Positions 1,827 to 7,006 of a stretch of 64,000 nucleotides of DNA are shown one piece after another; positions within the stretch are counted from its first letter, which is position 1; the number at the start of each line of letters is the position of its first letter. The DNA is from a virus: the IMG/VR virus record IMGVR_UViG_3300020450_001021, positions 1 through 64,000 of that record; one strand, 5' to 3'. The position numbers and the translations under genes were made by a program. Under the pieces are notes generated by a model. That model was not told the origin of the DNA. It saw nothing but the letters and a program-made list of their open reading frames with translations, and did not search any database.

Positions 1827-1861
1827 TTTTAAAAATGTACTTATCTATTGTAGCATAAAAA

Positions 1862-1885
1862 AAGAGGGGTTGCGACCCCCCTCTT
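1862..1885 (-). terminator. rho-independent terminator
   Basis: The stem AAGAGGGG/CCCCTCTT is followed on the minus strand by a run of seven T. It lies directly after the stop of the DUF4278-like peptide gene (1890) and closes that riboswitch-controlled transcript. Confidence 0.85.
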
Positions 1886-1889
1886 AATT

Positions 1890-2033
1890 TTAACTGCAAG
1901 GCGATGCCTTACTGTTAACTTTTATACCACGATACATTAGTTCGTGACGATTACGCTGTGCTGCTTCTTCAAGCACCATTGCGTTGTATTCTTCAGTGTC
2001 ATATTCGACACCACGATAAGTGACTTTTGCCAT
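1890..2033 (-). CDS. DUF4278-like small peptide under riboswitch control (47 aa)
   Basis: A 47-residue peptide beginning MAKVTYRGVEYDTEEYNA, with a second YRG in LMYRGIKVNSKASP. The YRGxxY pattern is that of the short DUF4278 peptides widespread in marine cyanobacteria and their phages; their function is unknown to me. It is a single-gene transcript: promoter at 2183-2210, two glutamine-riboswitch-like elements at 2063-2160, this ORF, then a terminator at 1862-1885. The class of RNA named Downstream-peptide lies ahead of exactly such peptides, which suggests a role in the nitrogen response of the infected cell. Confidence 0.8.
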   Translation of the reverse strand: MAKVTYRGVEYDTEEYNAMVLEEAAQRNRHELMYRGIKVNSKASPCS

Positions 2034-2062
2034 TGGTTTTTCCAAAGTAGTAGGGATTTTTG

Positions 2063-2110
2063 CCCCGTTCCTTCAGTCAACATTTGCGTCCTTCAAAAAG
2101 GATGAACGAA
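2063..2110 (-). promoter_or_regulatory. putative glutamine riboswitch, copy 2 (Downstream-peptide type)
   Basis: Read on the minus strand this copy has CGTTCATCC, then GGACGCAA, then GAAGGAACGGGG; the outer CGTTC and GAACG pair. It is the ordered signature I know from the glutamine-binding glnA / Downstream-peptide RNAs of cyanobacteria and cyanophages. The inner core reads GCAAATG rather than GCAAGTA, so ligand binding by this copy may be weaker. The element ends about 30 nt before the peptide start codon at 2033. Confidence 0.7.
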
Positions 2111-2111
2111 T

Positions 2112-2160
2112 CCGTTCCTAGTTTGACTTACTTGCGTCCCCATTTCAGAGGATGAACGTT
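2112..2160 (-). promoter_or_regulatory. putative glutamine riboswitch, copy 1 (Downstream-peptide type)
   Basis: On the minus strand it reads AACGTTCATCCTC, then GGGGACGCAAGTAAG, then AGGAACGG. The core GGACGCAAGTA is closer to the remembered consensus than in copy 2. It starts at the end of the palindrome 2161-2176 and is followed after 1 nt by copy 2, giving a tandem arrangement. Confidence 0.75.
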
Positions 2161-2176
2161 GTGTTAATATTAACAC
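2161..2176. repeat. perfect 16-bp palindrome at the transcription start
   Basis: GTGTTAATATTAACAC is a perfect inverted repeat. It lies 7 nt downstream of the -10 box at 2188-2183, so it covers the expected +1 and could be an operator or a 5' hairpin of the riboswitch transcript. Confidence 0.7.
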
Positions 2177-2182
2177 ATTCAT

Positions 2183-2210
2183 ATTATATAGTCAAGTGAA
2201 ACTGTTACAA
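2183..2210 (-). promoter_or_regulatory. sigma-70 promoter of the riboswitch-peptide unit
   Basis: The minus strand has TTGTAA (2210-2205), a 16-bp spacer and TATAAT (2188-2183). The predicted start falls at the palindrome directly ahead of the tandem riboswitch. Confidence 0.65.
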
Positions 2211-6827: not shown

Positions 6828-7006
6828 TAGTAAGACGTTTTAAATAGGGCTTCAAGGGTAGAAGCGATATTTATTTCCAGCAATCCCTCACTACTGGATA
6901 AAAGACGAAGTATTATACTGCCTATAGGTCTTGGTTTAAGAGCAGTTTGTAGTCAGGGTTACGATTGTTTCGAGTCCTTCCTAATGTGTTGGTTTCCCAA
7001 CTGATC

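Follow-up and report, generated by a model that had tools for sequence, protein, structure and literature searches.

Do two glutamine-riboswitch-like elements that stand in a row ahead of a small viral gene act as two aptamers or as one? This question is raised by a locus on the minus strand of IMG/VR virus record IMGVR_UViG_3300020450_001021. The window analyzed here is a stretch of 64,000 nucleotides (positions 1 to 64,000) of this record. The initial annotation described tandem glutamine-riboswitch elements ahead of a short peptide gene and suggested that such a pair could give a sharper or graded response. We propose instead, with a probability of roughly 0.8, that these elements form a single composite leader of the glutamine-I riboswitch type, in which two interlocked copies have a common P3 helix and which would most likely work as an ON switch of a DUF4278 gene. 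We computed the composite fold, the obligate pairing of its halves, the open reading frames (ORFs) embedded in it and the presence of DUF4278 genes downstream.

The source virus is a cyanomyovirus, because its 84,640-base viral record includes genes that we take to be psbA, psbD and talC, an S-adenosylmethionine decarboxylase gene, and a PhotoRC-II RNA leader (59.4 bits, window positions 6863-6961, minus strand) that precedes the psbA-like gene.

Two glnA-type elements and their surroundings

The two glnA-type elements lie head to tail on the minus strand (2160-2111 and 2110-2062). Both follow the order CGTTCATCC ... GGACGC ... GGAACGG. The covariance-model check of the annotation assigned both copies to Rfam family RF01739. 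The downstream copy scores 37.2 bits against the gathering score of 35; the upstream copy scores 33.2 bits in cmscan and 41.9 bits, above the cut-off, in a search of the whole record. That search of all 84,640 bases gave no RF01739 match besides the two copies. Both copies are real RF01739 elements, and such elements are not rare: one pattern scan of viral contigs returned at least 120 matches.

A canonical glutamine-I aptamer has the order CGUUC-A-P2-CGNAAGUA-P3-GAAG-GAACG, and its loop E is made of AGUA and GAA (PMC6316151). The second copy had been described as having a divergent core; indeed, it carries CGCAAAUG in place of CGCAAGUA and ends in GAAGGAACG, and the replacement is systematic. 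The first copy is divergent too, which had been missed: it has CGCAAGUA and lacks GAAG before GGAACG. Thus the copies complement each other's missing core half. Below, D1 designates the core of an upstream copy (with AAGUA), D2 the core of a downstream copy (with GAAG), and Dc a self-contained canonical core.

The three-way junction P1/P2/P3 of RF01739 is present in the composite, with P3 formed between the copies. By sequence, loop E is found only in the outer junction of the composite, where copy 1 supplies AGUA and copy 2 supplies GAA; neither copy has both. The pair does not qualify as two independent tandem aptamers, D1 being devoid of GAAG and D2 of AGUA. The tandem description holds for the family and the phage context and fails for two self-standing aptamers, as neither core is complete alone.

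The 47-aa gene with the YRGxxY motif, annotated as DUF4278-like, does belong to this family (PF14105) by the Pfam gathering cut-off (26.4 vs 25.3 bits). An intrinsic terminator follows it, as had been noted. In nearly all of 245 loci the composite is followed by a YRG gene of the DUF4278 type: 173 loci, plus 66 with its MNTL type. The parts of the window locus are listed in Table 1.

Table 1. Elements of the composite leader and its neighborhood in the window
Positions	Strand	Element	Basis
2162..2195	-	Promoter-like TTGACT-17-TAATAT, the -10 inside inverted repeat TGTGTTAATATTAACACA	
2154..2158	-	U1 CGUUC, 5' side of outer P1 (partner 2066-2070)	Sequence, MFE fold, RNAalifold
2137..2152	-	P2 hairpin of the outer junction (UCCUC/GGGGA)	Local P2 pairing in relatives, MFE fold
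2129..2136	-	D1 core CGCAAGUA, holds the AGUA half of loop E	Sequence, cluster comparison
2123..2128	-	P3 5' strand AGUCAA, partner UUGACU (2075-2080) of the other copy	Cross-copy pairing, MFE fold
2104..2117	-	Inner P1' hairpin: GAACG (2117-2113), loop GAUU, CGUUC (2108-2104)	Linker length, RNAalifold, MFE
2089..2102	-	P2' hairpin of the inner junction; ORF within this loop in many relatives	Local P2' pairing
2081..2088	-	D2 core CGCAAAUG, without AGUA	Sequence, cluster comparison
2075..2080	-	P3 3' strand UUGACU	Cross-copy pairing, MFE fold
2066..2074	-	GAAG (second part of loop E), then GAACG as 3' strand of outer P1	Sequence, RNAalifold, MFE
2053..2066	-	P4 hairpin GGGG..UCCC, adjoins outer P1, one G in common	P4 pairing in relatives
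2041..2046	-	Likely Shine-Dalgarno region UUUGGA	Sequence
1890..2033	-	47-aa DUF4278 protein gene (PF14105; phrog_5049)	Pfam, PHROG
1860..1885	-	Intrinsic terminator	Sequence analysis

An inverted repeat with a -10-like center lies at 2162-2179 (minus strand). Of 223 unique composites, 173 have such a repeat 0-6 nt ahead of U1 (mean of shuffles 19); its arms vary among composites, while the symmetry is preserved. If its center is a -10 box, transcription would start at U1, which is where the start site predicted from the promoter-like element of the window would fall.

Pairing between the copies

The proposed fold consists of two back-to-back three-way junctions with a common P3. The outer P1 joins CGUUC of copy 1 with GAACG of copy 2, and the inner P1' joins GAACG of copy 1 with CGUUC of copy 2 over a loop of 3-4 nt. 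P3 joins the stretch that follows AAGUA in copy 1 to the stretch that precedes GAAG in copy 2, in the same register as in the canonical aptamers' own P3. The window carries the simplest form of the composite, free of embedded ORFs.

The halves occur together. The first set of clusters comprised 116 D1-D2 clusters, with Dc single in 70 cases and one apparent Dc-D2; after more scans the enlarged set had 260 D1-D2 clusters and Dc single in 67, and the Dc-D2 calls listed there overlap one and the same element. Among 140 complete loci fetched with no condition on D2, this half is present in 139. Only L379 deviates: its second half, read by eye, is divergent (GAGAUAUG/CAUAUCUU, 8/8 pairs), and counting it gives 140/140.

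Compensatory changes in the helix between the copies were seen in many sequence types among 262 viral loci. P3 is AGUCAA/UUGACU in the window and AUUCG/CGAAU in P-RSM4. Other types are AGUCG/CGACU, AGUCA/UGACU, AGCCGACU/AGCCGACU, AGCCGACA/UGCCGACU, AGUUGACU/AGGCAACU, GGACGACG/CGCCGCCC and GGACGG/CCGCCC; among phage variants, S-CREM1 has G-C at position 8 and S-PM2 has U-A. Over 53 distinct pairs of strands, 228 of 265 positions pair, compared with 198±3.4 for shuffled partners (maximum of 5000 shuffles 213), a statistic that related sequences inflate. Pairing amounts to 255/295 in register and does not exceed 138/295 when the partner is slid, a control that preserves relatedness. A mismatch is conserved at position 3, which is frequently C.A or A.C.

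Would each copy be able to form an aptamer with a P1 of its own, so that two independent glutamine-I aptamers in tandem give a sharper or graded response, as was originally suggested? Each copy does match RF01739 separately, copy 1 of the window could form a local P3 of 3 bp (AGU/ACU), and Weinberg et al. (PMC2864571) described such RNAs as tandem and suggested digital control. On the other hand, a local P3 in the canonical register (3/3 pairs) is found in only 1/32 unique D1 and 0/26 unique D2 (a good number of these are not long enough for it); 38/55 unique canonical elements have their own P3 in this register. Given also the incomplete loop E of both copies, the covariation of P3 across the copies and the folding energies given below, we regard independent aptamers as improbable.

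P2 and P2' are local hairpins, and each covaries within its own copy. In relatives, local pairing is 149/160 for P2 (shuffled 99±4.9) and 100/105 for P2' (shuffled 78±3). The P1 strands are invariant across the loci, so no covariation is possible for them, and the exchange of P1 strands is argued from nesting, energy and the linker. P3 nests with the outer P1 (U1 with D2) and the inner P1' (D1 with U2); with local P1 helices it would form a knot. The linker from GGAACG to CGUUC measures 3-4 nt, the size of a hairpin loop, in 255 of 262 loci. For 60 natural sequences, the unaided choice of RNAalifold was the outer P1, the inner P1' and both P2 helices; P3, with its frequent C.A or A.C at position 3, was not drawn. 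When the composite structure is named in advance, 95.8% of the cells are paired (85.3±0.5 in shuffles), and there are 143 cells with double changes against 37.5.

The minimum free energy (MFE) structure of the window element is the composite including P3, at -23.0 kcal/mol; the fold with two separate aptamers reaches -14.3 and is thus 8.7 kcal/mol worse. The composite is lower in energy than the separate fold in 107 of 107 cases. The window fold is not significantly more stable than those of shuffled sequences (z -0.76); therefore, covariation carries the argument. Once the coding sequence downstream is added, the MFE structure of the element has a broken outer P1.

In some relatives the pair is also read as a unit. 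In L102 Rfam itself reads one aptamer across both copies (40.2 bits), and in S-CREM1 a glnA feature of 99 nt covers the composite. A covariance model of the composite gives 92.7 bits for S-PM2 and 77.8 bits for S-CREM1, both outside its training set. Taken together, the cross-copy covariation, the energies and the obligate pairing of the halves indicate that, in the modeled structures, a complete canonical core would arise only when the copies interlock via the common P3 and exchanged P1 strands.

A leader might also use both folds, with strand exchange between the interlocked state and two local aptamers serving as the switch. Either copy's CGUUC and GAACG can substitute for those of the other, both folds contain P2 and P2', and the exchange would couple the two copies. 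Yet the separate state is much less stable, it rebuilds no complete loop E, and no covariation specific to it was detected, which makes such a switch unlikely, albeit less so than independent aptamers.

The least probable alternative, which we would give hardly any weight, is a circularly permuted aptamer, in which D1 and the following CGUUCAUCC constitute the unit and P2 is opened. It is suggested by ORF-bearing loci, where the first CGUUC is about 200 nt upstream and D1 is adjacent to the following CGUUC. But almost every locus has this remote CGUUC ahead of the ORF, and P2 pairing of D1 with U2 shows no excess over shuffles, apart from a weak one in loci with both loops short (186 vs 172.6±4.1). 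The local P2 covariation is very strong and speaks against a permutation via P2.

Reading frames in the aptamer loops and a putative mechanism of switching

In about 60% of relatives, a whole small ORF fills the loop of P2 and/or P2'. A long outer P2 loop is found in 60 loci, all of them with an ORF (60/60), and a long inner P2' loop in 116 loci, 115 of them with an ORF. The ATG of the embedded ORF is usually 10-14 nt past the start of CGTTC. The stop of the inner ORF mostly falls within D2 (GACGCAAACGAC-TGA/TAA-AGG), and its position there accounts for why GAAG varies between G and A. In 100 of 116 loci P2' takes up one or more bases of the start codon. Representative embedded ORFs match phrog_504 and phrog_6471, whose function is not known in PHROGs; in P-RSM4 the embedded ORFs are annotated as T4-GC 430 and 429. 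The 49-aa inner ORF of P-SSM2 (L477, 2603-2752) is absent from the annotation of AY939844.2 and annotated in GU071092.1. As a separate observation, many composites (L288, L348, L366, L289 and others) have one and the same hairpin, ATTCGCTATTCGCAAATAGCGAA, as their P2', and a similar sequence is found in L020; this hairpin could be repetitive or mobile.

Crystallography of glutamine-I places glutamine in contact with the junction and with the first pair of P1 (PMC6698751), and glutamine riboswitches associated with DUF4278 genes were reported to behave as ON switches (PMC6316151). In the composite, glutamine is the presumed ligand by membership in the family. The outer junction (U1, P2, AAGUA, P3, GAAG and the outer P1) would draw on both copies to restore the full canonical pocket for glutamine. 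The inner junction (the inner P1' hairpin, P2' and CGCAA) may be either a second pocket or a structural cap. It retains CGUUC, CGC and GAACG and is devoid of loop E, so a second glutamine site is no more than possible.

The direction and mechanism of switching are the weakest part of the model. Most likely, glutamine would stabilize the outer P1. This would weaken P4, which also uses the last guanosine of P1, and thereby free the Shine-Dalgarno region, so that DUF4278 would be translated at high glutamine (an ON switch). When the composite is forced, the predicted openness of the Shine-Dalgarno region is 0.50 vs 0.42, a small difference, and it is higher in 83 of 106 cases; such opening fits the ON behavior reported in PMC6316151. 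The P4 signal itself is modest (3.68 vs 3.44±0.044). Another candidate mechanism has the leader pair with AAGUA (UACUU) or P4 as an anti-Shine-Dalgarno element. This was seen by eye in many leaders; since others lack it, the mechanism was rejected.

In relatives with an ORF in P2', the same fold would bury the start codon of this ORF, and the inner ORF and DUF4278 would therefore be regulated in opposite directions. An extended version can be put forward only tentatively. In it both junctions would bind glutamine via the common helix, giving built-in cooperativity, and the inner ORF and DUF4278 would be translated reciprocally: the fold would hide the inner start codon, and ribosomes translating the inner ORF up to its end in the aptamer core would break the fold. 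The sharper response suggested in the initial annotation might still occur.

Relation to known riboswitches and occurrence in phages and hosts

Earlier work has established tandem glnA RNAs and their association with DUF4278, as well as the presence of glutamine riboswitches in cyanophages. The composite resembles glutamine-I (glnA, RF01739) of cyanobacteria in its parts, loop-E halves, three-way junction and downstream DUF4278 gene (PMC6316151). It differs from the inspected host examples, in which one copy usually stands alone and has space to form a P3 hairpin by itself: in the phage composite P3 forms between the copies, P1 strands are exchanged, and the P2/P2' loops can bear ORFs. Weinberg et al. 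(2010; PMC2864571) described tandem glnA RNAs and suggested digital control. The likeness extends to two glnA-like elements in a row in cyanobacterial or marine sequence, and those RNAs probably include the phage elements studied here; the passages of that paper that we consulted do not describe an interlocked fold or embedded ORFs. Our literature search, incomplete in coverage and so leaving an earlier description possible, revealed no account of the interlocked fold or of loop-filling ORFs.

Glutamine-II (Downstream-peptide, RF01704) has a similar CGUUCA-P2-GGCGCA strand and is likewise associated with DUF4278 genes. Membership in it was rejected: the scores are 31.0 bits (copy 2, just under the threshold) and 17.8 bits against 33, and the downstream helix of the model is not formed, with non-pairs in the alignment, while the composite uses the common P3.

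The tandem glycine riboswitch consists of two aptamers, each complete, which dock through tertiary contacts. The composite is similar in having two related aptamers in one leader with possible cooperativity, and different in that the secondary structure itself is common to both halves. If the model is true, this is a riboswitch architecture with two aptamers built of each other's strands and a secondary-structure route to cooperativity, in which protein-coding ORFs fill aptamer loops and aptamer bases serve as stop codons. Nitrogen sensing during infection would become testable in S-PM2, P-SSM2, P-RSM4 and P-TIM68. Annotation is affected as well: none of the five ORF-bearing examples scanned has an Rfam gathering match, and short composites can be read as two separate matches.

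The composite is widespread in cyanophages of the dominant marine picocyanobacteria and is present in ten isolated or deposited cyanophages. Its covariance model (R1) matched only 1/201 genomes of the Prochlorococcus (picocyanobacterial) family under strict filters that could miss weak matches, whereas RF01739 matched 33/101 genomes. No second nearby copy was seen in most host elements inspected, and one of them, L489, read in sense orientation, has its own local P3. A pattern scan of a collection of 84,980 genomes gave 11 matches, several of them unrelated to cyanobacteria by title.

The single genome match of R1 is on a 189-kb contig that matches cyanomyovirus genomes and is also the source of L475 (QCLS01000003.1). 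Composite-type motifs were also noted on other contigs filed, like that of L475, as Prochlorococcus or marine MAGs (L466, L467, L469, L472 and L474); these five may be phage contigs binned with cells.
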